DNA of 64,000 nucleotides. Source: Bacillota bacterium. Its GTDB lineage: Bacteria; Bacillota; Sulfobacillia; JAJZYS01; JAJYTV01. Each line of letters begins with the position of its first letter. Positions within the stretch are counted from its first letter, which is position 1. The notes under the pieces are model-generated. The model made no database searches. It had not been told where the DNA came from and was given only the letters and a program-made list of their open reading frames with translations. Made by a program: the position numbers and the translations under genes. Below, piece after piece: positions 24,616-60,926 of the stretch. The DNA is taken from assembly GCA_021793645.1 (NCBI GenBank), contig JAJYSJ010000009.1:1-64000 (forward strand), in the 5' to 3' direction.

Positions 24616-25578
24616 CTACGGGCGGTAGCGGATCGTCCCGCCCCCGACGCGCTGCACTCCCGGCACCTTGCACAGGTCGTCGACGAGGCGCAGCACGGCG
24701 TGGTCCTTCGCTTTCGCCTCGACCATCACGTCGATGTCGCGGCCGTGCTCCCTGGCCGCCTCCAGGAGCGTAAGGGCGTCTTCGGGCGTCACGAGGTCCG
24801 CATGCGCCCGCGGAGCGCGGGCGTCGCGCGCAGAGGAGAGGTGCAGCTTCGGCGGCTGCGCCTGGTTGGACCAGGTGGAGAACACCTGCGCAAGCAGGTC
24901 GGAAAGGCTCCCCTCGCAGGGATTGCAGCGATGGTGCAGGAGGTCCAGCACGGCAGGGATGCCGCTCGCTTGCGCGGCGTCCAGGACGTCGCGCACCGTG
25001 AAGGTGCGGTCGTCGTTCTCCAGGGCGATGCGGTCGCGGACCGCGGGCGGGAGCGCCGCCACAGCCTCGCGAAAGCGCTGGGCGGCGGCTGGCTTGTCAC
25101 CGTAGCCGCCGCCCATGTGCACGACCAAGTTCGCCTCGGGAAGGCCCATCAGGTCGCAGATGCGCGCGTGATCCAGCAGGCTGCGCTGCGCCGCCGCCTG
25201 TACCGTCGTGCGGTCGGCGCTCAGCACGACCGCCGCGTGCTCCGGGTGGAAGGAGACGCGCATGCCCGCGTCCCGCACGACGCCTCCAACAAGCCCGAGA
25301 TCTGTCGCGAGATAGCGGAAGAAGTCCCAGTCGTCGGATTCCGGGTGGCCAAGAAACGGGATGAGGCGCGACGAGAAGCGATAGAGCGGGATGCCCTGCG
25401 TTATCGCGTGGCGCACGATGCGCAGTGTGCTTTCGAGGTTCTGCGCCGCAAGCTGCGTCAGGCGCCGCATCGCAAGCTTGTGCGGCCCTTGGCGCAGGCG
25501 AGCGAGCGTTGTCGTCCGCGACGGCGACTCCTGCGGCAGGTCGAGCGACATGGCGACGAAGCCGAAGCGCACGCGCAT
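24616..25578 (-). CDS. uvsE: UV damage endonuclease UvsE (UVDE)
   Basis: A 320-residue TIM-barrel endonuclease that nicks 5' of UV photoproducts and other lesions. Family landmarks include RFGFVAMS at the start, YRFSSRLIPFLGHP, MRVSFHPEHAAVVLS, NLVVHMGGGYGDK, ALENDDRTF, VLDLLHHRCNP and the C-terminal DVMVEAKAKDHAVLRL; their His, Glu and Asp residues bind the metal cluster. Start ATG 25578 follows GGAGGGATCG. The upstream in-frame extension to 25644 lacks family residues. It is divergent from the acyl-CoA dehydrogenase genes. Confidence 0.93.
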   Translation of the reverse strand: MRVRFGFVAMSLDLPQESPSRTTTLARLRQGPHKLAMRRLTQLAAQNLESTLRIVRHAITQGIPLYRFSSRLIPFLGHPESDDWDFFRYLATDLGLVGGVVRDAGMRVSFHPEHAAVVLSADRTTVQAAAQRSLLDHARICDLMGLPEANLVVHMGGGYGDKPAAAQRFREAVAALPPAVRDRIALENDDRTFTVRDVLDAAQASGIPAVLDLLHHRCNPCEGSLSDLLAQVFSTWSNQAQPPKLHLSSARDARAPRAHADLVTPEDALTLLEAAREHGRDIDVMVEAKAKDHAVLRLVDDLCKVPGVQRVGGGTIRYRP

Positions 25579-25708
25579 CGCGATCCCTCCTGCGCTCAGC
25601 ATTCCCCGTACGGACCAAGGCCGTGCTGCACGCGTCACACGCAATTGGGGCGGCTGTCACCACCATGGCGGGCAAGCAGGCGCACGATTGGGCGCGGAGG
25701 TGGTGGGC

Positions 25709-26881
25709 ATGACAGGACGGGAGGACATCGCGACGGAGGAGCGCGCCCTTTGCGACATTGCGCACGAATTCGCAAAATCGCGCCTGCGCGCTGCGGGAGC
25801 GGCAGCCGACGCGGGAGGCGCCTATCCTTGGGATGTGGTGCGCGATGCGATCGCGCTCGGTCTCGGCGCACCGAATGTGCCCGAGTCTTTTGGAGGCGCC
25901 GGCACCGGCGCAAGGGCACAGGCGGCCATGATGGAGGAGCTCGGATGGGGGAACTTCGGGCTGGCGGCATCCATCGGTGCGTCGGGTGTCGTGGCCGCAG
26001 CCATCCTCCATGCGGGATCAACCGCGCAGAAGGAATGTTACCTGCCAAGGCTCGCTGGCGCTGACGGCACTGGCGTCGGGGCCCTCGCGCTCACCGAGCC
26101 TGAGGGCGGATCGGAGATGGAGATTCTGCTCTCGCAGGACCAGACCGTGCGCACGCGGGCGACGAAGACGGCTGGCGGCGTGCGGCTTTCCGGCGCGAAG
26201 CGCTTCATCACGAACGGCGGTCAGGCGGACGTCACGCTCGTCTTGGCCTCGGAGGGCGAGGGCGGCCCAAAGACTTGGAGCCTCTTCATCGTAGAGTCAG
26301 GCGACCCCGGGGCAATCTCGGGGCGGCGCATCCCAACGCTCGGGCTGCGCGGGTCGTACACGGGGGAGATCCAGTTCGAGGATTGCATCCTCACGGAAGA
26401 CCGCCGTCTCGGCGCGCCTGGCACGGGGATGGCGACGGTCCTTTACGCGCTCTCCGTCGCGCGGCCGATGGCCTCGTCTGCCGCGCTCGGACTCGCGCGA
26501 GCGGCCTACGAGGAAGCCGCGCAGTACGCTCGCGAGCGTCGCCAGTTCGGCGTGCCGATCATCACCCTGCAGCAGGTCGGCGCGTCGCTCGCCGAGATGC
26601 GGACCAGGCTCGACGCCGCAAGGCTCCTGGTGCGGGCTGCGGCGGGCGAACTCGAGGCGGGCCGCGATGCCTCGCTGCCTGCGGCCGAGGCCAAACTCTT
26701 CGCGGGCGAGACGGCCGTGCAGGTGACGCAGGCGGGGCTGCAGGTGCTGGGAGGGTACGGCTTCACACAAGAGTTCCCGCTGGAGATGTGGGTGCGGGAT
26801 GCCTTCGTTGCGCGCATCTTCTTCGGCACCGCCGAGATCCAGCGCCTTGAGATCGCAAGGGGCATCCAGGAGGGCCTTTAG
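25709..26881 (+). CDS. Acyl-CoA dehydrogenase-like protein 1, no catalytic Glu visible
   Basis: A 390-residue ACAD-fold protein: N-terminal helical domain, middle beta domain (ALTEPEGGSEM, FITNGGQADVTLVLA) and C-terminal helices with the FAD-contact motif YARERRQFG and LGGYGFTQEFPLEMWVRDA. Where medium-chain enzymes have the catalytic base (IYEGTSQIQR) this reads IFFGTAEIQR, so Glu is Phe. The alternative base position of isovaleryl- and long-chain enzymes (LERLV-type) is Ala in SVARPM. FAD binding looks intact but dehydrogenation chemistry is doubtful. Start ATG 25709 follows a GGAGGTG-type site. A paralogue follows directly. Confidence 0.88.
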   Translation: MTGREDIATEERALCDIAHEFAKSRLRAAGAAADAGGAYPWDVVRDAIALGLGAPNVPESFGGAGTGARAQAAMMEELGWGNFGLAASIGASGVVAAAILHAGSTAQKECYLPRLAGADGTGVGALALTEPEGGSEMEILLSQDQTVRTRATKTAGGVRLSGAKRFITNGGQADVTLVLASEGEGGPKTWSLFIVESGDPGAISGRRIPTLGLRGSYTGEIQFEDCILTEDRRLGAPGTGMATVLYALSVARPMASSAALGLARAAYEEAAQYARERRQFGVPIITLQQVGASLAEMRTRLDAARLLVRAAAGELEAGRDASLPAAEAKLFAGETAVQVTQAGLQVLGGYGFTQEFPLEMWVRDAFVARIFFGTAEIQRLEIARGIQEGL

Positions 26882-26969
26882 GACACTCCCTGCGCCGAAG
26901 GGTGCTTTCTGCGCTGTCCTATTCCGCGGACGGGCGCGTCGTGGCATCCTCTGTGGGGAGGCGGTCTCG

Positions 26970-28130
26970 ATGGCACTCGACTTCTCGGAGGGGCTTCCCC
27001 TCGACGTGGTGGCGCTGCGTGACGTCGCGCACGACTTTGCGGTCCAAAAGCTGCGGCAGGCGGGCATCGCCGCGGACCGTACCGGCGACGTGCCCTTTGC
27101 GGTTCTGCGGGAGGCGGGAGAACTCGGCCTCTGGGCTCCGAACGTACCCGAGGCCCTGGGCGGGCCCGGTGTCTCGGCACTCGCACAGACAGCGATGATG
27201 GAAGAGCTCGGCTGGGGTAGCCTCGGCATCGCGCTCGGCATCGGCACCCAGGCGCTCTGCGCCGAGGCCGTGCTGCGCGCAGGCGACGACGAGCAGAAAA
27301 AGCGCCTGCTGCCGGGCCTTTGCGGTGCGCAGGGGCTCGCACTCGGCGCCCTGGCGCTGACGGAGCCGCAGGTGGGTGGGGGGCAAGAATCCTTCTCGGA
27401 GGAGGTGCCTAACCGCACGATAGCCGTCAAGGCAGATGGCGGCTATCGCCTGGATGGGCGCAAGGTGTTCGTGGCGAACGGCGGCGAGGCAAAGATCACC
27501 GTCCTGCTCGCATCGGCTCCCGATGGCGACAGTCTTTTCGCGCTTGGGCGGGAGGCGGAAGGCTTCACGCTGGTGCGGCGGATCGAGACGGCCGGACTGC
27601 GTGCCCTGCAGCTCGCCGAGATCTCCCTGAGCGGCTGCAGCGTGCCCGCACAGGCGCGCCTCGGTGCTGCCCCCGGTGATGCTGCGGTGGCCAAGGTGCT
27701 GGCGCTTGGGCGCACGCTCGCGGCAGCGGGCCTGGTGGGCACGGCGCGGGCCGCGTTCGAGGAGGCCCATGCCTACGCGCGCACGAGACATACCTTCCGA
27801 AAGCCGATCATCGAGCACGAACAGGTCGGCGGGGCGCTGGCACAGATGCGTGCGCGCATCCAGGCTGCGCGTCTGATGGTCTACCGGGCGGCAGGAGACC
27901 TCGATGCGGGGCGCGACGCTGGAGTCTCCTCGGCAGAAGCCGCCTTCCTGGCCGGAGAGATAGCCGTCGGAGCGACGCGTGGAGCCGTGCAGGCCTTCGG
28001 GGGCTACGGATTCACGCAGGAGTTCCCGGCTGAGATGTGGCTGCGCGATGCGGTCGGCGGTCGTCTGGCCTACGGCACGGGCGACCTGCAGTTGATGGAG
28101 GCGGCGCAGGCGATCGCAGCCGGCGCCTAA
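26970..28130 (+). CDS. Acyl-CoA dehydrogenase-like protein 2, paralogue, no catalytic Glu visible
   Basis: A 386-residue paralogue of the preceding gene, with closely matching blocks such as the MMEELGWG region and GGYGFTQEFPxEMWxRDA. The equivalent of IYEGT is LAYGT, so the base is Tyr, and the alternative position is Gly (LALGRTL). The FAD motif is YARTRHTFRKPI, lacking the usual Gly after Phe. The substrate-loop segment ALTEPQVGGGQE also departs from TEPxxGSD. Start ATG 26970 has GGGAGG upstream. It probably forms an operon with its neighbour and the lipoate ligase; the two ACADs may form a hetero-oligomer. Confidence 0.87.
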   Translation: MALDFSEGLPLDVVALRDVAHDFAVQKLRQAGIAADRTGDVPFAVLREAGELGLWAPNVPEALGGPGVSALAQTAMMEELGWGSLGIALGIGTQALCAEAVLRAGDDEQKKRLLPGLCGAQGLALGALALTEPQVGGGQESFSEEVPNRTIAVKADGGYRLDGRKVFVANGGEAKITVLLASAPDGDSLFALGREAEGFTLVRRIETAGLRALQLAEISLSGCSVPAQARLGAAPGDAAVAKVLALGRTLAAAGLVGTARAAFEEAHAYARTRHTFRKPIIEHEQVGGALAQMRARIQAARLMVYRAAGDLDAGRDAGVSSAEAAFLAGEIAVGATRGAVQAFGGYGFTQEFPAEMWLRDAVGGRLAYGTGDLQLMEAAQAIAAGA

Positions 28131-28142
28131 GGGGGGAAACGC

Positions 28143-29162
28143 TTGCTCATTCCGGTCGAGAACCGTTCGCAGTTTCCGCCGCACAACTTGGCGCTCGAGG
28201 AGCATGTGCTGCGCCGTTTCGATCCTCAGAACGACTACGCGGTCCTCTGGCAGAATGCGCCGGCGGTGATCGTGGGGCGATTCCAGAACACGGCCGAAGA
28301 GGTGAACCAGCCTTACGTCGAGCAGGAGGGCGTGGCGGTGGTGCGCCGCCTCTCCGGGGGCGGCGCGGTCTACCACGACCTCGGCAACCTCTGCTTTACC
28401 TTCGTCGTACGCCAGGCGAACGGCCGGGCCGGCAACTTCGATTACTTCACCGTGCCGGTCGTTGAGACGCTGCGCCGCTTCGGGGTGAAGGCGGAACGCA
28501 GTTCTCGAAACGACCTCACGATCGAGGGACAGAAGTTTTCCGGCAACGCGCAGTATGTCAGCGGTGGGCGGCTCTTGCACCACGGCACCATCCTCTTCGA
28601 CTCGGATCTCGACGCCGTCGCGCGCGTGCTACATGTGGCGAAGGACAAGATCGAGAGTCATGGAGTGAAGTCGGTGCGCTCGCGCGTCACGAACGTGCGG
28701 CCCTACCTGAAGTCGGACGTGGCGCTCGAGGAGTTCGCCAAGGTGCTGATGGAAGAGATCGGCCGCCAGGCGGGTGGGATCGGTCCCATGCACCACCTCT
28801 CGGACGTGGACGAGTCCCAGGTGGACGAACTGATTACGCGGCGATACGGCAACTGGACCTGGAACTGGGGCGACTCACCGCCCTTCACCCTGCGCGCGAA
28901 GCGGCGCTTTGCGACGGGCGCCGTCGATGTGCGCCTGGATGCGCAAGGGGGAATTATCCGCAGCGCACGCATCTTTGGGGACTTCCTTGGCCTGCGTGAC
29001 GTGGGGGAACTGGAGGCGGCGCTCTCCTCGGTACCCTTCGACGTCGCGGCGGTGCGCAGTGCCCTCTCGCCCCTGCCTGTCGCGGAGTACCTCGGTGGGA
29101 TCGGCCTGGAAGACGTTCTGGGACTCCTCTTCGACGAGGTATCCGACCCCGCGACGGCGTGA
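28143..29162 (+). CDS. lplA: Lipoate--protein ligase A
   Basis: A 339-residue LplA/LplJ-type enzyme that activates lipoate with ATP and attaches it to lipoyl domains. Motifs are NLALEEHVLR, the RRLSGGGAVYHDLGN lipoate-binding loop, KFSGNAQY with the conserved Lys, HHGTILFDSDL, and a C-terminal accessory domain starting near residue 245 (WNWGDSPPFTLRAKRRF). The start is TTG 28143 after an AAGGGGGGAAA site, 12 bases after the second ACAD gene. Its clients include the E2 subunit encoded at 53.6-54.9 kb. Confidence 0.93.
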   Translation: MLIPVENRSQFPPHNLALEEHVLRRFDPQNDYAVLWQNAPAVIVGRFQNTAEEVNQPYVEQEGVAVVRRLSGGGAVYHDLGNLCFTFVVRQANGRAGNFDYFTVPVVETLRRFGVKAERSSRNDLTIEGQKFSGNAQYVSGGRLLHHGTILFDSDLDAVARVLHVAKDKIESHGVKSVRSRVTNVRPYLKSDVALEEFAKVLMEEIGRQAGGIGPMHHLSDVDESQVDELITRRYGNWTWNWGDSPPFTLRAKRRFATGAVDVRLDAQGGIIRSARIFGDFLGLRDVGELEAALSSVPFDVAAVRSALSPLPVAEYLGGIGLEDVLGLLFDEVSDPATA

Positions 29163-30035: not shown

Positions 30036-31379
30036 ATGCAAGCCGTCCGTTCACGCTTTGGCGAACTTCGGCCCGCCTTGCGCAATCTTGGCGAAGCCGC
30101 GGTGGAAGCCGAACGCTGCCTCTCGTGCGGCGATGCCTACGCTCCGGCGCCCTGCGCGGTGGCGTGCCCGGCCGGAATCGACGTGCCGGGCTTCATCCGG
30201 GCCCTCTCGGAGGGCGATCCCGGCCGCGCGGCCGACGTGATCTTCAGGGACAACCCGGTGGGCGGGAGCTGTGCGCGCGTCTGCCCGACGCCTGTGCTCT
30301 GCGAGGGCGCCTGCGTGCTGGAGCACGAGGGCGAGCGCGCCGTCTCGATCGCGCGCCTGCAGCGCTTCGCGACGGACTACCGCCTGCTCGGCCCCGGCGC
30401 GAGCCGAGAGGAGCAGCCCGAAGGGCCGCGCCTCGGACGCGTGGCCGTGATCGGCGCGGGGCCGGGCGGCTTGGCGTGTGCAGGCGAACTGAACGCGCTC
30501 GGCTTCGATGTGACCGTCTTCGAAGCGCGACCCGCCCCCGGCGGGCTGGTGCGCTACGCGATCGCGCCCTACCGCCAGTGGCAGGAGCCGCTTGACGAAG
30601 AGGCGGATAGACTGCGCCGCCGTGGCGTAACGCTGCGCTTCGAGACGCCGGTTGACGGGCCGCAGGCGCTGCGGCGCCTGGAGGCGGAATACGACTTCCT
30701 CTACCTCGGCGTCGGCCTCGGCGAGGATGAGGCGCTCGACCTTCCGGGTCGAGACCTGTCCGGCGTCGACCTGGCACTGCCGTGGATCGAGCAGCTGAAG
30801 GCCGGCCGCGCCGCAGCGGTGGGAGAGCGCGTCGCGGTGATCGGCGGCGGCAACACGGCGATCGACGTGGCGCGCGAGGCTCTGCGTCTCGGAGCCCGTG
30901 ACGTGACCGTCATCTACCGGCGCACGATGTCCGAGATGCCGGCCTACGCCTTCGAGGTTGAGGAGGCGCAGGCGGAAGGCGTGCGGTTCCTCTGGCTCAC
31001 GCTCCCCACCGGGTTCATCGGGGCGCACCGCCTGCAGGGCGTCGCCTGTCAGTACGTCCGGCTGTCCGAGCCGGACGCTGCGGGGCACCGGCGTCCTGAA
31101 GCGCTGCCCGGCACGGACTTCGTCTTTCCCTGCGATACGGCGATCAGCGCGATCGGGCAGGCTCCGCGGCGGATTCTGGCCGAGTGGATCCCGGGTCTGG
31201 AGTTCCAGGGAGGGCGCCTCGTAGTCGACAAGGAGACGGGACGCACGGGAAACCCGCGCTACTACGCCGGCGGTGATGCCGTGAACGGCGGCGCGACGGC
31301 GGTGCAGGCAGTCTCGGACGGCACGCGCGCCGCGCGGGCGATCGGACGCAGAGCACAGGCGAAGGGGGTGGCGAAGTGA
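30036..31379 (+). CDS. GltD-like FAD/NAD(P) oxidoreductase with N-terminal Fe-S domain, partner of a 2-oxoacid:ferredoxin oxidoreductase
   Basis: A 447-residue protein of the glutamate synthase small-subunit type. The N-terminal helical Fe-S domain has CLSCGDA, CAVACPAGIDVPGFI and GGSCARVCPTPVLCEGACV, enough Cys for two [4Fe-4S] clusters. Then come an FAD-binding GAGPGGLACAGEL (about residue 145), an NAD(P)-binding GGGNTAIDVAREALRLG (about 270) and a closing GGDAVNGGATAVQAVSDG FAD motif. No large glutamate synthase subunit is present; instead a GTGA overlap couples it to por-type genes. I infer that it passes electrons between ferredoxin-type clusters and NAD(P). The start is ATG 30036 behind a G-rich site. 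Confidence 0.88.
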   Translation: MQAVRSRFGELRPALRNLGEAAVEAERCLSCGDAYAPAPCAVACPAGIDVPGFIRALSEGDPGRAADVIFRDNPVGGSCARVCPTPVLCEGACVLEHEGERAVSIARLQRFATDYRLLGPGASREEQPEGPRLGRVAVIGAGPGGLACAGELNALGFDVTVFEARPAPGGLVRYAIAPYRQWQEPLDEEADRLRRRGVTLRFETPVDGPQALRRLEAEYDFLYLGVGLGEDEALDLPGRDLSGVDLALPWIEQLKAGRAAAVGERVAVIGGGNTAIDVAREALRLGARDVTVIYRRTMSEMPAYAFEVEEAQAEGVRFLWLTLPTGFIGAHRLQGVACQYVRLSEPDAAGHRRPEALPGTDFVFPCDTAISAIGQAPRRILAEWIPGLEFQGGRLVVDKETGRTGNPRYYAGGDAVNGGATAVQAVSDGTRAARAIGRRAQAKGVAK

Positions 31380-31945
31380 TCGAGGTGCGCTGGCACGGCC
31401 GCGGCGGCCAGGGTGCGAAGACTGCCTCCCACGTGCTCGCCGTCGCCTACCTGAAGGAAGGGAAGGCAGTACAGGCTTTCCCGGAGTACGGACCGGAGCG
31501 CAGCGGCGCGCCGATGCTCGCCTACACGCGCGTCGACGAGCGGAAGATCCGGAGGCGCTGCGCTGTTACGGAGCCCGATGTCGTCGTGGTGCTGGACCCC
31601 AGCCTGACGCACGAGGTGGCGATCACTGGCGGGCTGCGCCTGGACGGCCACCTCCTGCTGAATGCAGAGGAAGCGCGGGATACGGGGGCGGCCGTCAGGG
31701 ACTATGCGGGAGAAGTGCTGGCCGTGCCGGCCGATCGCCTGGCGCGGGAGTCCGGGACCCGGTTCCCCAACGTGGTGCTCCTGGGGGCCCTGGCGGGCTG
31801 GCTGGGATCCCCGAGCCTCGCGCACCTCGGAGAGGCGCTCGACGAAGTGATGTCCGGGCTGCCCGCCGCGGCGCGGGCCGCTTCGCAGCAGGCGATGCAG
31901 GCCGGCTACGCGGCCGGAGAGCGAGGGATGCACCATGGCGAGTGA
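31376..31945 (+). CDS. porC: 2-oxoacid:ferredoxin oxidoreductase, gamma subunit
   Basis: A 189-residue gamma subunit. The start IEVRWHGRGGQGAKTASHVLA is the family signature, followed by FPEYGPERSGAPMLAYTRVD. It contributes to the interface and CoA-binding face of PFOR-type enzymes. It starts at GTG 31376 within the stop of the flavoprotein gene and overlaps the start of the delta gene by 11 bases. Confidence 0.92.
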   Translation: MIEVRWHGRGGQGAKTASHVLAVAYLKEGKAVQAFPEYGPERSGAPMLAYTRVDERKIRRRCAVTEPDVVVVLDPSLTHEVAITGGLRLDGHLLLNAEEARDTGAAVRDYAGEVLAVPADRLARESGTRFPNVVLLGALAGWLGSPSLAHLGEALDEVMSGLPAAARAASQQAMQAGYAAGERGMHHGE

Positions 31946-32273
31946 ACTGCGCGCGCCGATGCGCGCGGGAGGAGTCGTGCTGCCAGGGGATGTGCTGCGG
32001 CCGCGCACGGGCGGGTGGCGGACGGGCCAGAAGCCGGCTGTCGACCTCAGCCGCTGCGTCGACTGCCTCGTCTGCTGGATCCACTGTCCCGATACGGCGG
32101 TGCGCCAGTGGGGCGCCGTCTTCCAAGGCTTTGACTACGACCTGTGCAAGGGCTGCGCCATCTGTGTTGAGGTCTGTCCCGCCGGCGCCATCGCGATGGT
32201 GTCTGAGGAGACGGCGCTCGATCCGGGCGGAGTCGTGCAGGGAACGGGGGTGCTTGCACATGGCCAAGGTTGA
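31935..32273 (+). CDS. porD: 2-oxoacid:ferredoxin oxidoreductase, delta (2x[4Fe-4S] ferredoxin) subunit
   Basis: A 112-residue ferredoxin-type subunit with two clusters: CVDCLVCWIHCPDTAV (about residues 37-52) and CKGCAICVEVCPAGAI (about 72-87). It carries electrons from the TPP site toward external ferredoxin or the GltD-like partner. The gene overlaps both neighbours, which indicates tight translational coupling. Confidence 0.92.
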   Translation: MASELRAPMRAGGVVLPGDVLRPRTGGWRTGQKPAVDLSRCVDCLVCWIHCPDTAVRQWGAVFQGFDYDLCKGCAICVEVCPAGAIAMVSEETALDPGGVVQGTGVLAHGQG

Positions 32274-33450
32274 GCTCGCGCTGCAGGTTCTGACGGGCGC
32301 CGAGGCGACGGCGCACGCCATGCGGCAGATCCGGCCGGACGTCGTACCCGTCTACCCGATCACGCCGCAGACCCCGATCATCCAGACCTTCAGCCGCTTC
32401 GTCGCCGACGGGAAGACGGACACCGTGCTGGTGCAGGTGGAGTCCGAGCACTCCGCGATGAGTGCAGCCGTCGGATCCGCCCTGGCGGGGGCGCGCACGA
32501 TGACCGCAACCGCCTCGCAGGGACTCGCGCTGATGGTCGAGGTGGTGTACATCGCGGCCGGACTGCGGGCTCCGGTCGTGATCGCGGTCGGCAATCGCGC
32601 ACTTTCCGGACCGATCAACATCCATGGGGACCACTCGGACGGCATGCTGGCGCGCGACAGCGGCGCCGTGCAGATCTACGCCCTGGACGCGCAGGAGGCC
32701 TACGATCTCACTGTGATGGCCCCGCGCGTCGCGGAGCACGCTAGGGTGCTGCTGCCGGTGATGGTGGGCCAGGACGGGTTCAACGTCACGCACTCGGCCG
32801 AGCCCGTGGCCCTCCTGCCCGACGAGGAGGTCCAGGCGTTCGTCGGACCGTACGAGATCCCCTACGCCCTCCTGGACGGGAACGCCCCATCGAGTCATGG
32901 CGTCTTCGCGATGCCCGACTCCTACTTCGAACTGCGCCACCAGATGATCTCCGCGGTGGAGGCGGCGGAGCGGGTCTACGGGGAGGTTGCCGAGGACTAT
33001 CGGCGCCTCTTCGGCCGCTGGCTTCCCGCGCTCGACGCCTACCGCATGGAGGATGCCGAGCGAGCCCTCATCCTGATCGGGTCGGCGGCCGGCACCGCGA
33101 AAGAAGTGGTTGATGACCTGCGCGCGGCGGGCGAGAAGGTCGGCCTCGTGGCGGTTCGCCTGTATCGGCCCTTCCCGCACCAGGCGCTGCGCGAGGTGCT
33201 CGCGGGCGTAAAGCGCGTCGCCGTGCTGGATCGCGCGGCCTCGCCCGGCACCTATCCACCGCTGTTCAGCGACGCGCTGGGCGCTGTGCAGGGTACGCAG
33301 GTGGAACTGCGCAGCTACGTCTACGGGCTCGGCGGACGGGACCTCCCGCTGCGGGCTGTGCATCGGGCCTTTCGGGAACTGCTCGCGCCCGCGCATGCGC
33401 GGATCGGCTATCTCGGACTCGTGGGGGAGGATGACGATGGCGAGTCTTAA
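32260..33450 (+). CDS. porA: 2-oxoacid:ferredoxin oxidoreductase, alpha subunit
   Basis: A 396-residue alpha subunit. VYPITPQTPIIQTF (substrate/TPP region), VQVESEHSAMSAAVGSALAGAR and TASQGLALMVEVVYIAAG are the classic PorA segments, and domain II begins near residue 265 (ERALILIGSAAGTAKEV). Start ATG 32260 lies inside the end of the delta gene. The long frame upstream of it belongs to the overlap with porD and is not translated. Pyruvate, 2-oxoisovalerate or 2-oxoglutarate specificity cannot be fixed from sequence alone. Confidence 0.92.
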   Translation: MAKVELALQVLTGAEATAHAMRQIRPDVVPVYPITPQTPIIQTFSRFVADGKTDTVLVQVESEHSAMSAAVGSALAGARTMTATASQGLALMVEVVYIAAGLRAPVVIAVGNRALSGPINIHGDHSDGMLARDSGAVQIYALDAQEAYDLTVMAPRVAEHARVLLPVMVGQDGFNVTHSAEPVALLPDEEVQAFVGPYEIPYALLDGNAPSSHGVFAMPDSYFELRHQMISAVEAAERVYGEVAEDYRRLFGRWLPALDAYRMEDAERALILIGSAAGTAKEVVDDLRAAGEKVGLVAVRLYRPFPHQALREVLAGVKRVAVLDRAASPGTYPPLFSDALGAVQGTQVELRSYVYGLGGRDLPLRAVHRAFRELLAPAHARIGYLGLVGEDDDGES

Positions 33451-34408
33451 GACGCTGGCACTGCTCGAGGAGGAGCGGCCGGGGTTCTCCGGCGGACATT
33501 CCCTGTGCGCCGGCTGCGGCATCCCGCCGATCGTGCGCACGGTGCTCGGATCGATCCGCGGACCCAAGGTGGCGATCAGCGCGACGGGCTGCCTCGAGGT
33601 GGCGACGACGCGCTACCCCTTCACCGCATGGGGCGTGCCCTGGATCCATGTCGCCTTCGAGAACGCCGCAGCCGTCGCAGGCGGCGTCGAGGCGGCCTAC
33701 CGCGCGCTCTCGCGCCGCGGCAAAATCCAAGGCGAGCCCGTGACCTTCGTCGTCTTCGCCGGCGACGGCGGCACCTACGACATTGGCTTGCAGGCGCTAT
33801 CCGGGGCGCTCGAGCGCGGACATCGGCTGCTCTACGTCTGCTACAACAACGAGGCCTACATGAACACGGGCATCCAGCGCTCCGGTGCGACGCCCTACGC
33901 CGCGAACACGACGACCAGTCCCGTTGGCAGCCTGGGCAAGGGGAAGGCCGAGCGGCGCAAGGACATGACTGCGATCGTCGTCGCCCACCACATCCCGTAC
34001 GCGGCCCAGGCGGCCGCCTCGCACTGGCAGGATCTCAGCCGGAAGGTGGAGCGCGCAGTGCAGGTCGACGGCCCTTCCTTCCTCAACGTGCTCGCGACCT
34101 GCCCGCCGGGATGGGGGCACGAGGCGAAGGACAGCGTCAAACTCGCGAGGATCGCGGTCGAGACGCATTACTGGCCGCTCTTCGAGGTGGTGGAGGGGCA
34201 CTACCGCATCACCCATCGGCCGGCGCACCAGCGCCCGCTGGAGGAGTGGCTGAATCTGCAGCGTCGCTTCTCCCACCTGCACGGCGAGCGGGGAGCGGAT
34301 CTCGTCTGCCGGCTGCAGGAGGAATTAGACGAAGGCTGGGTGCAGCTCCTGCAGCGCGATGCCGCCGACGCAGAATGGTTCCGGGCGCTGGAGGAGGCGG
34401 GCGCCTGA
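33437..34408 (+). CDS. porB: 2-oxoacid:ferredoxin oxidoreductase, beta (TPP-binding) subunit
   Basis: A 323-residue TPP-binding subunit. HSLCAGCGIPPIVRTVL holds the CxxC of a proximal cluster, ISATGCLE follows, and FAGDGGTYDIGLQALSGALERGHRLLYVCYNNEAYMNTGIQRS is the GDG-x-NN TPP/Mg motif. Start ATG 33437 is six bases from GGGGGAGG and overlaps porA by 14 bases. It ends the five-gene operon (flavoprotein, gamma, delta, alpha, beta). Confidence 0.93.
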   Translation: MASLKTLALLEEERPGFSGGHSLCAGCGIPPIVRTVLGSIRGPKVAISATGCLEVATTRYPFTAWGVPWIHVAFENAAAVAGGVEAAYRALSRRGKIQGEPVTFVVFAGDGGTYDIGLQALSGALERGHRLLYVCYNNEAYMNTGIQRSGATPYAANTTTSPVGSLGKGKAERRKDMTAIVVAHHIPYAAQAAASHWQDLSRKVERAVQVDGPSFLNVLATCPPGWGHEAKDSVKLARIAVETHYWPLFEVVEGHYRITHRPAHQRPLEEWLNLQRRFSHLHGERGADLVCRLQEELDEGWVQLLQRDAADAEWFRALEEAGA

Positions 34409-58985: not shown

Positions 58986-60926
58986 ATGGCGCTTTCAATG
59001 GCTGACCAAAGCTCCGGAAGGCTCCTGTACCCGATGGTACGGGAAGGCGGCAAGCTGCGCCGCGCGTCGTGGGACGAGGCCTTGTCGGCTGCGGCGGAAG
59101 CGATGACGCGGATACGCGACCAGCATGGACCCGATGCATTCGGCGCCTTCAGCTGCTCGAAGGCGAGCAACGAACTGAACTACCTCGTGCAGAAGTTCAT
59201 GCGGACCGCGATCGGGACGAACAACATCGACAGCTGCAACCGTACCTGACACGCCCCCAGCGTCGCAGGTCTTGCGACGGCATTCGGCTCCGGCGGGGCA
59301 ACAACGTCTTATCGCGACATGGAAGAGACCGACATGATCATCCTCTGGGGCTCCAATGCCCGGGAGGCACATCCGATCATGTTCCAGCACATGATGCGCG
59401 CCGTTCGGAGGCGTGGTGCGAAGCTCGTGATCGTCGACCCGCGGCGCATCTCGGGCAGCGAGTTCGCCAGCTTGTACCTGCCGGTGCGCGTCGGCGGCGA
59501 CATCGCGCTCGCCAACGCGGTAGGGCACGTGATTGTGGAAGAAGGTCTGGCGAACAGCGAGTTCATCTCCCGCGCCACGGAAGGCTTCGAGGCGTACCGC
59601 GAGACGGTGCGCAGGTACAGGCCGGAGGACGTTGAGGAGTGGACCGGAGTCCCGGCCGAGGACGTGCGCAGGCTCGCGCGGATGTACGCGAAGGCAGACC
59701 GCGCGGTGCTCTGCTGGACGCTCGGCATCACCGAGCACCACAACGCGGTGAAGAACGTCCACGCACTGATCAACCTCGGCCTTCTGACGGGCCACATCGG
59801 CAAGCTCGGCTCCGGTCTCGCGCCCTTGCGCGGACAGAACAACGTGCAGGGCGGCGGCGACATGGGCGCCCTGCCGAACCGCCTGCCCGGTTTCCAGGAC
59901 CTCACGAAGCCCGAAGTGCGCGAGCGCGCTGCGAAGGTCTGGGGTGCCCCGGTGCCCGAGAAGCTCGGCCAGCACCAGTCGGCGATGTTCGAGTCGATGG
60001 CGAAGGGCGACCTCAGGGCGCTCTACATCATCGGCGAAAACCCGCTGCAGTCGGAGGCGAACCAACGGCACGTACGCGGATTGCTGGAAAACCTCGACTT
60101 CATGCTCGTCCAGGACATCTTCCTCAACCGCACTGGAGAAATGGCGGACGTCGTTCTGCCTGCAACCGCCAGTTGGGCGGAGGCCGACGGCACCGTGACA
60201 AACTCGGAGCGTCGCGTACAGCGCCTGCGCAAGGCGGTGGAGCCGCCGGGCGAAGCGCGCGACGACCTCTGGATCGTCGAGGAGCTCGCGCTGCGCATGC
60301 AGGCTCCGGGCAACTGGGCGCACCGCAGCGCCGAAGAGAACTGGGATGAACTGCGCAAGGTCTCCCCGATGCACGGCGGCATGTCCTACAAGCGCCTTGA
60401 GGAACTCGGCGGATTGCAGTGGCCCTGCCCGACGGAAGACCACCCCGGCACGCTGTTTTTGCACGCGCGCCTTTGGGAAAATCCCGTCGTCGGACCGCGC
60501 GCTCCGTTCGTCTCGGCGGATCACGAGCCGACGGCTGAGCAGACGGATGCGCAGTTCCCGTTCATGCTCACGACGGGACGCCGCCTCGAGGACTACAACA
60601 CGGGCGTGCAGTCGCGCTACTACCCGGCGCCACGCGGCCACTACGAGCGTCTCGACATGTGCGCCGAGGACATGCAGCGCCTCGGATTCTCCGAGGGAGA
60701 CATGGTCGAGGTGTCGTCGCGGCGCGGCCAGGTGACGGTGCCGGTCGAGGAGAGCAGCAAGATGCATCCCGGCCTCGTGTTCCTCAGCCTCAACCACCCC
60801 GATGAAGTCGCAACCAACCTCCTAACCCTCGACGCCATTGACCCACAGTCGGGCACGGCCGAGTTCAAGGCGACCGCGGTGCGGATCGAACGCGCGAGGA
60901 TCGCCGTGGAAGAAGGGAGTCGATAA
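58986..60926 (+). CDS. fdhA: Selenocysteine formate dehydrogenase catalytic subunit, lacking its N-terminal [4Fe-4S] domain
   Basis: Read through the UGA at 59247-59249, this is one 646-residue protein. Residue 88 is Sec in DSCNRT-U-HAPSVAGL, matching the R-x-U-H-x-PSVAGL active site of FdhF-type enzymes. Downstream it has the usual bis-PGD fold: ILWGSNAREAHPIMFQHM, VDPRRISGSE, GLLTGHIGKLGSGLAPLRGQNNVQGGGDMGALPN, and a C-terminal molybdopterin domain (TGRRLEDYNTGVQSR, SSRRGQVTVPV). The N-terminus starts where the second domain normally begins (GRLLYPMVREGGKLRRASWDEAL); the CxxCxxxC cluster domain is absent. GGGGAGGG precedes ATG 58986. It overlaps the NuoE-like gene by one to three bases. Confidence 0.93.
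59247..59279 (+). promoter_or_regulatory. Selenocysteine UGA codon and bacterial SECIS hairpin
   Basis: UGA at 59247-59249 is followed by a perfect 7-bp stem CGTCGCA/TGCGACG (59261-59267 with 59273-59279) closing a GGTCT loop. E. coli fdhF has a GGTCT apical loop at a similar distance after its UGA. SelB would bind this element to insert Sec; selA, selB, selC and selD are not in the window. Confidence 0.88.

Follow-up and report, generated by a model that had tools for sequence, protein, structure and literature searches.

On the strength of their fold alone, acyl-CoA dehydrogenases (ACADs) are usually given a beta-oxidation annotation. The same fold is used for a non-dehydrogenase reaction by 3-sulfinopropionyl-CoA desulfinase (AcdDPN7, PDB entry 5ahs). 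In the alpha2beta2 ACADs of the ChsE type, the alpha subunit is described as binding the isoalloxazine and carrying the catalytic Glu, and the beta subunit as contacting the ADP-ribose (PMC11153573; see also PMC8399759). ACDH-11 and the AidB-type proteins are ACAD homologues to which stress roles rather than beta-oxidation are attributed, and Bd2924, which is discussed beside them, retains the Glu (PMC6851490). In the accessible portions of the open-licence PMC literature on base-less ACADs, heterotetramers, OsmC, related organisms and ACDH-11, no ACAD clade without both known bases was recognised. The two ACAD genes described here belong to such a clade. They lie in the window, i.e. the whole stretch of 64,000 nucleotides of a Bacillota bacterium that was analysed.

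Two ACAD genes and their products

The features of the locus that are needed below are the following:

25709-26881, + strand: ACAD1, ORF from ATG, 390 amino acids, ACAD fold with FAD motifs retained
26114-26137, + strand: insertion region of ACAD1 directly after TEPxxGS, residues 137-144, including the invariant Glu139
26810-26842, + strand: C-terminal motif of ACAD1, ARIFFGTAEIQ, with the second Phe (26822-26824) in place of the catalytic Glu
26970-28130, + strand: ACAD2, ORF from ATG, 386 amino acids, ACAD fold with the flavin-side Ser and Thr gone
28059-28091, + strand: C-terminal motif of ACAD2, GRLAYGTGDLQ, with Tyr at 28071-28073
28143-29162, + strand: lplA, lipoate-protein ligase (TIGR00545, 384.8 bits, cut-off 280)

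The residue numbers given for the ACAD1 insertion (137, 139 and 144) are counted from one codon before the ATG. The two ACAD genes are separated by 88 bases and each has a Shine-Dalgarno-like GGAGG upstream. The lplA gene begins 12 bases past the end of ACAD2 and is probably on the same transcript, in the source genome only. The N-terminal, middle and C-terminal ACAD domains (PF02771, PF02770 and PF00441) all score above their cut-offs in both proteins, which share 49% identity with each other and at most about 37% with the remaining ACADs of the genome. A search of the window against Rfam gave no match at the gathering score.

Single-chain AlphaFold models, each made with 7 alignment rows, reached a mean pLDDT of 80.9 for ACAD1 and 78.8 for ACAD2, and both show the ACAD fold. 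The top Foldseek match of the ACAD1 model was 1ws9 (TM 0.87) and its best VIA Z score was 46.8, with 7y0a; the ACAD2 model matched 1ws9 with a TM of 0.83. The pLDDT was below 50 at residues 133-146 of ACAD1 and at residues 134-146, 311-317 and 370-386 of ACAD2. Since the insertion loop falls below this value in both models, no acidic residue can be placed near the substrate from them.

Loss of the catalytic base

The C-termini of ACAD1 and ACAD2 read ARIFFGTAEIQR and GRLAYGTGDLQL, as the first-pass annotation of this DNA had given them. By alignment, the position of MCAD Glu376 is occupied by Phe in ACAD1 and by Tyr in ACAD2, and the alternative base position in helix G (before the conserved Arg, LCAD/IVD type) by Ala and Gly, respectively. 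Neither protein thus has the Glu or Asp of the J-K loop that defines the MCAD type or the helix-G Glu that defines the LCAD/IVD type. The replacements are the same in every full-length orthologue: Phe in 8/8 ACAD1 and Tyr in 8/8 ACAD2 proteins at the Glu376 position, and Ala in 8/8 and Gly in 8/8 at the helix-G site. All 16 are therefore without a base at both known positions, which confirms and extends the earlier claim that neither copy has one there.

The genome from which the window comes encodes 13 PF00441 proteins. With the same alignment method, Glu occupies position 376 in 10 of them; the remaining three are ACAD1, ACAD2 and C74:289529, which adjoins a Glu-bearing ACAD. The scoring was repeated in two more genomes. 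G045 has nine ACADs, six with Glu376, two with the helix-G Glu and one with neither, and G001 has 13, comprising eight with Glu, one with Asp, ACAD1, ACAD2, one with neither and a contig-end fragment that was left unscored. The helix-G Glu enzymes L123 (QER) and L125 (FER) and the Asp-type L124 were recognised as positive controls. Over the three genomes, 7 of the 34 scored proteins lack both bases: ACAD1 and ACAD2, twice each, and three others. These three each directly adjoin a base-bearing ACAD, like the known alpha/beta pairs, and ACAD1 and ACAD2 are the sole base-less ACADs of the 34 that have no base-bearing neighbour. An ordinary-looking alpha/beta ACAD pair (FEGT plus a base-less LSALTG) is seen at positions 288292-289873 of contig C74 in the source genome, and G001 has a similar one.

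FAD motifs and a clade-specific insertion

All eight ACAD1 proteins keep TEPxxGS, KRFIT, the GT of FFGT and the QFG of RxxQFG, so that by sequence both FAD-binding motifs are present throughout the group (8/8), and the helix-G Arg is retained as well. In the same eight proteins GSD has become GSE. The Asp of this motif is reported as invariant among the ACADs examined in one study (PMC11153573). Its replacement by Glu argues for a site that was altered and not simply frozen, and counts against the reading that we favour below.

Among the ACAD2 proteins, only L042 retains the Ser of TEPxxGS, the Thr of KxFIT is Val or Ala in 8/8 and the Thr of GT is replaced by Gly in the six rows from genus g2, while RxR and QxxGGYG are still present. 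The window ACAD2 and its counterpart L041 have lost the TEPxxGS motif. In the locus L022 (8001-9137, the same gene as L041), TDAQVADG stands in its place and the dN/dS is comparable to that of the neighbouring genes. Judged from these motifs, the pattern of losses in ACAD2 resembles that of a beta subunit, and ACAD1 resembles an alpha subunit minus its base. The analogy with heteromeric ACADs drawn in the first-pass annotation is thus reasonable for ACAD2, but the two copies are not equivalent, as the FAD motifs are kept in ACAD1 and not in ACAD2.

In both groups, TEPxxGS is followed by about 8 inserted residues, new acidic ones among them. The insertion was gauged by a spacing that runs from the Thr of TEP up to the position just before the KxFIT Lys. 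The spacing amounts to 28 residues in every one of the 22 outside-family rows and in eight own-genome ACADs among the 11 besides ACAD1 and ACAD2 (29, 43 and 45 in the other three). The 7/7 ACAD1 orthologues and the 6/6 genus-g2 ACAD2 rows have 36, whereas the window ACAD1 has 35, the window ACAD2 has 34 and L041 has 29. The full 8-residue insertion is thus found in 13 of the 16 clade members and a 7-residue one in the window ACAD1; it is shortened and largely degraded in the window ACAD2 and cut in L041. Within it, Glu139 is invariant in ACAD1 (8/8), and a Glu is aligned there in 7/8 ACAD2 proteins. Further clade-specific acids occur in the C-terminal helices at ACAD1 positions 315, 328 and 382, where other ACADs have hydrophobic residues; we suspect that these mark subunit interfaces.

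Orthologues, phylogeny and selection

Searches of 61 genomes (the source genome and 60 relatives) gave close matches (E <= 1e-80) in nine, all from the window's own family. ACAD1 is present at full length in G000 (the source genome), G001, G002, G004, G006, G007, G008 and G009, with a contig-end fragment in G003, and ACAD2 in G000, G001, G004, G005, G006, G007, G008 and G009. Seven genomes carry both genes; G002 has ACAD1 alone and G005 has ACAD2 alone, both genomes being incomplete. Those relatives of ACAD2 that carry a name are MAGs of Bacillota or Clostridia. A search of 154 genomes from the class gave another 37 matches outside the family (E <= 1e-70), and the 21 of these that were read all have YEGT or WEGT, i.e. 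they keep the Glu. The 398 genomes drawn from the phylum added one outside match (L093, E <= 1e-60), which repeats one of the 21. No relative of ACAD1 was found in the viral contigs scanned.

In an IQ-TREE phylogeny of 44 proteins, from which three distant own-genome ACADs and two repeats were omitted, ACAD1 and ACAD2 join as a single clade with a support of 100/100 and a stem of 0.9 changes per column. The ACAD2 group is supported at 100/99 and the ACAD1 group at only 72/28, because the window ACAD1 sits on a long branch. The simplest history that may be read from this tree is a single loss of the Glu in the stem of the clade.

The dN/dS of ACAD1 ranges from 0.17 to 0.26 among the seven orthologues besides that of the window, and from 0.25 to 0.37 in pairs with the latter. 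For ACAD2 it is 0.05-0.16 within genus g2 (the near-identical L039/L047 pair being omitted) and reaches 0.50 across genera. The value of 0.23 between the window ACAD2 and its L022 counterpart lies inside the range of eight neighbouring genes (0.14-0.29), so even this pair without TEPxxGS is under ordinary constraint. Judged from these ratios, both genes are under purifying selection and preserved across one bacterial family.

Gene neighbourhoods in related genomes

The first-pass annotation had described the genes as a tandem. They are indeed adjacent in the source genome, but elsewhere they lie on separate contigs or only one of them was found, and their neighbourhoods in the relatives are unrelated to each other. 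As the tandem is local to one genome, their adjacency by itself says little for a heteromer.

In G004, G006, G007 and G009, ACAD1 is followed by genes for a hemerythrin-domain protein, an AhpD-like (CMD) protein and an OsmC-like protein, identified by Pfam in the G007 set and by BLAST to that set in the other genomes. In G006 to G009, genes of the narGHJI type lie upstream of the ACAD1 locus (assigned by Pfam for alpha, beta and gamma in L061 and by BLAST for the remainder), and in G008 the contig breaks off past the hemerythrin match. G001 and G003 have OsmC first and ACAD1 after it. An OsmC gene is therefore near ACAD1 in six of the eight other ACAD1-holding genomes, fragment included (G001, G003, G004, G006, G007 and G009); the link is absent in G002 and in the source genome, and the G008 contig is too short to tell. 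No AhpD or OsmC match was found in G005, which has no ACAD1. In the source genome, AhpD and OsmC are side by side on contig C73, apart from ACAD1, which thus seems to have moved beside ACAD2. None of the 22 outside-family ACAD loci has OsmC, AhpD or hemerythrin genes within flanks of about 1.5 kb. This argument from context covers 10 genomes of one family.

Around ACAD2, the locus L022 has the same gene order as the window, without ACAD1 or lplA, and no lplA match lies beside ACAD2 in L022 to L027. AhpD and OsmC/Ohr are described as taking electrons from lipoylated proteins (PMC8945050), and the position of lplA behind ACAD2 is suggestive, and only that, of a tie to such lipoyl-dependent proteins. 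The window also carries, between a conserved YkuD gene and ACAD1 (24616-25644, - strand), a gene that by eye appears to encode a UV-damage endonuclease (UvsE). It has no match in L022, so it may have arrived together with ACAD1.

Downstream, at 30036-34405 (+ strand), a gene for a GltD-like flavoprotein is followed by those for the gamma, alpha and beta subunits of a 2-oxoacid:ferredoxin oxidoreductase, an arrangement conserved in L022. The genus-g2 ACAD2 orthologues have a different neighbourhood, in which ClpX (by eye) precedes ACAD2, and for this reason the oxidoreductase cluster was given no weight as a guide to the function of ACAD2.

Several observations in these genomes concern possible selenoproteins. 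At 58986-60926 (+ strand) of the window, a molybdopterin oxidoreductase gene, formate-dehydrogenase-like by eye, is interrupted by a single TGA, in frame at codon 88 (context NRTUHAPSVAGL), a site at which such enzymes have selenocysteine; its product is probably a selenoprotein. AhpD/CMD-like paralogues with an in-frame TGA occur in four genomes (L107, at about 85973-86374 of contig C28 in the source genome, and matches in G001, G002 and G003). In L107 the stop follows the Cys motif (SCRY*LNSH), and the protein is a possible CxxU selenoprotein. Downstream of ACAD1 in G001 (L056, 2837-3391, contig C41) there is a gene whose product weakly matches glycine/sarcosine/betaine reductase selenoprotein B (PF07355, 22.4 bits against a cut-off of 22).

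Possible functions of ACAD1 and ACAD2

We tentatively favour, at somewhat less than an even chance, a reading in which ACAD1 is a non-dehydrogenase, acyl-CoA-binding flavoprotein, ACAD2 its degenerate partner and stress the setting of their role. The two would form a family-restricted ACAD-fold clade in which the catalytic base was lost once, in the common ancestor, and the proteins were retained for another purpose. ACAD1 would still bind FAD and an acyl-CoA (or acyl-thioester) and would not carry out ordinary alpha,beta-dehydrogenation. ACAD2, the more degenerate copy, would be at most a beta-type partner giving the outer half of the FAD site, or an acyl-CoA binder. Because the neighbours of ACAD1 in relatives are hemerythrin, AhpD-like and OsmC genes, the role may lie in peroxide or nitrogen-oxide stress, for instance in holding or sensing acyl-CoAs or in handling damaged ones. 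The missing OsmC link in the source genome and G002, and the occurrence of each gene without the other, speak against this reading.

A flavin reaction without need of a base, for instance the reduction of an unusual acyl-CoA or the cleavage of a C-X bond in it, would agree with the FAD motifs of ACAD1 and with the redox and peroxide genes near it in relatives. The nearest NCBIfam models are also of this kind (acryloyl-CoA reductase, with 3-sulfinopropanoyl-CoA desulfinase third), but the scores are far below the cut-offs (260 of 640 and 201 of 600) and the window offers no clue to a substrate; we regard such a reaction as rather unlikely. Slightly less probable, in our view, is a relocated base, in which a carboxylate of the insertion (Glu137 or Glu139) would replace Glu376 and ACAD1 would still be an acyl-CoA dehydrogenase or reductase. 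The clade has both lost the old base and gained the loop, the 8 residues being absent from every outside-family row, and the near-invariance of the Glu at position 139 together with the uniform change of GSD to GSE would fit such a move. However, the loop is reduced in the window ACAD2 and in L041, with both genes still under selection, and its pLDDT is below 50 in both models. The MCAD geometry puts the loop near the flavin and the CoA and not clearly on the face of the substrate where the base acts.

It is also quite improbable that ACAD1 or ACAD2 serves as beta subunit in an alpha2beta2 ACAD whose alpha subunit, the one with the Glu, has its gene elsewhere. The losses in the FAD motifs of ACAD2 are beta-like, and the base-less L019_1967, L134 and L131 each adjoin a base-bearing ACAD in these genomes. 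These three are nevertheless all adjacent to their partners, no base-bearing ACAD was found near ACAD1 or ACAD2 in the loci read, and the flavin-side motifs of ACAD1 are intact. An ordinary alpha/beta pair made of ACAD1 and ACAD2 themselves was rejected, as alpha2beta2 ACADs have one Glu-bearing subunit and neither protein has the base. A still more doubtful proposal is a new class of ACAD-fold enzyme that, having lost the base from both sites and gained an acidic loop next to the FAD/CoA motif, would apply flavin chemistry with a relocated base or none to damaged (peroxidised or nitrated) acyl-CoAs and work with lipoyl-dependent OsmC/AhpD peroxidases, ACAD2 being a non-catalytic subunit; lplA directly behind the pair would fit it. 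Decaying pseudogenes or sequence errors might account for the loss of TEPxxGS from ACAD2 in the window and L041. The frames are open and free of internal stops in all genomes, and the invariant replacements in 16 orthologues, with a dN/dS like that of the neighbours, led us to discard this explanation as extremely improbable.

Under the favoured reading of a non-dehydrogenase flavoprotein, annotation for beta-oxidation is probably wrong throughout a conserved clade, which means at most two genes in each genome. An active ACAD1 would show the ACAD fold working with a moved base or with none; an inactive one would be a bacterial case of an ACAD retained for binding. Specific residues can be chosen for tests from the orthologue set and the insertion.

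Comparison with known systems

ACAD1 and ACAD2 have the whole fold and the domain order of MCAD, SCAD, MmgC and the Thermus thermophilus protein 1ws9, and ACAD1 retains the helix-G Arg. ACAD1 is about 31-40% identical to the medium- and short-chain ACAD structures listed, with a Z score of 46.8 for 7y0a. Unlike these enzymes, ACAD1 and ACAD2 have neither Glu376 nor the helix-G Glu, carry the insertion of about 8 residues and have a changed GSD.

The fold of ACAD1 is also that of the desulfinase AcdDPN7 (Z 42.0 with 5ahs), a comparison made at the level of the fold. With the desulfinase model NF042439 (cut-off 600), ACAD1 scored 201.4 and ACAD2 127.5 bits, and with the acryloyl-CoA reductase AcrC model NF042972 (cut-off 640) they scored 260.2 and 172.6 bits, so neither protein falls in these families. 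The scores with NF008594 (cut-off 545), which we take to be the AidB-type model, were 44.5 and 21.5 bits. The likeness to ACDH-11 and the AidB-type proteins would be that of ACAD homologues in stress; the differences are that ACAD1 is far below the NF008594 cut-off and that Bd2924 has the Glu.

The steroid alpha2beta2 ACADs (ChsE1-ChsE2, ChsE4-ChsE5 and IpdE1-IpdE2) are similar in the adjacency of ACAD paralogues, as seen in the window, and in the flavin-side loss of ACAD2. They differ in that neither copy here has a base, the genes are apart in relatives and both come from one family-specific clade.
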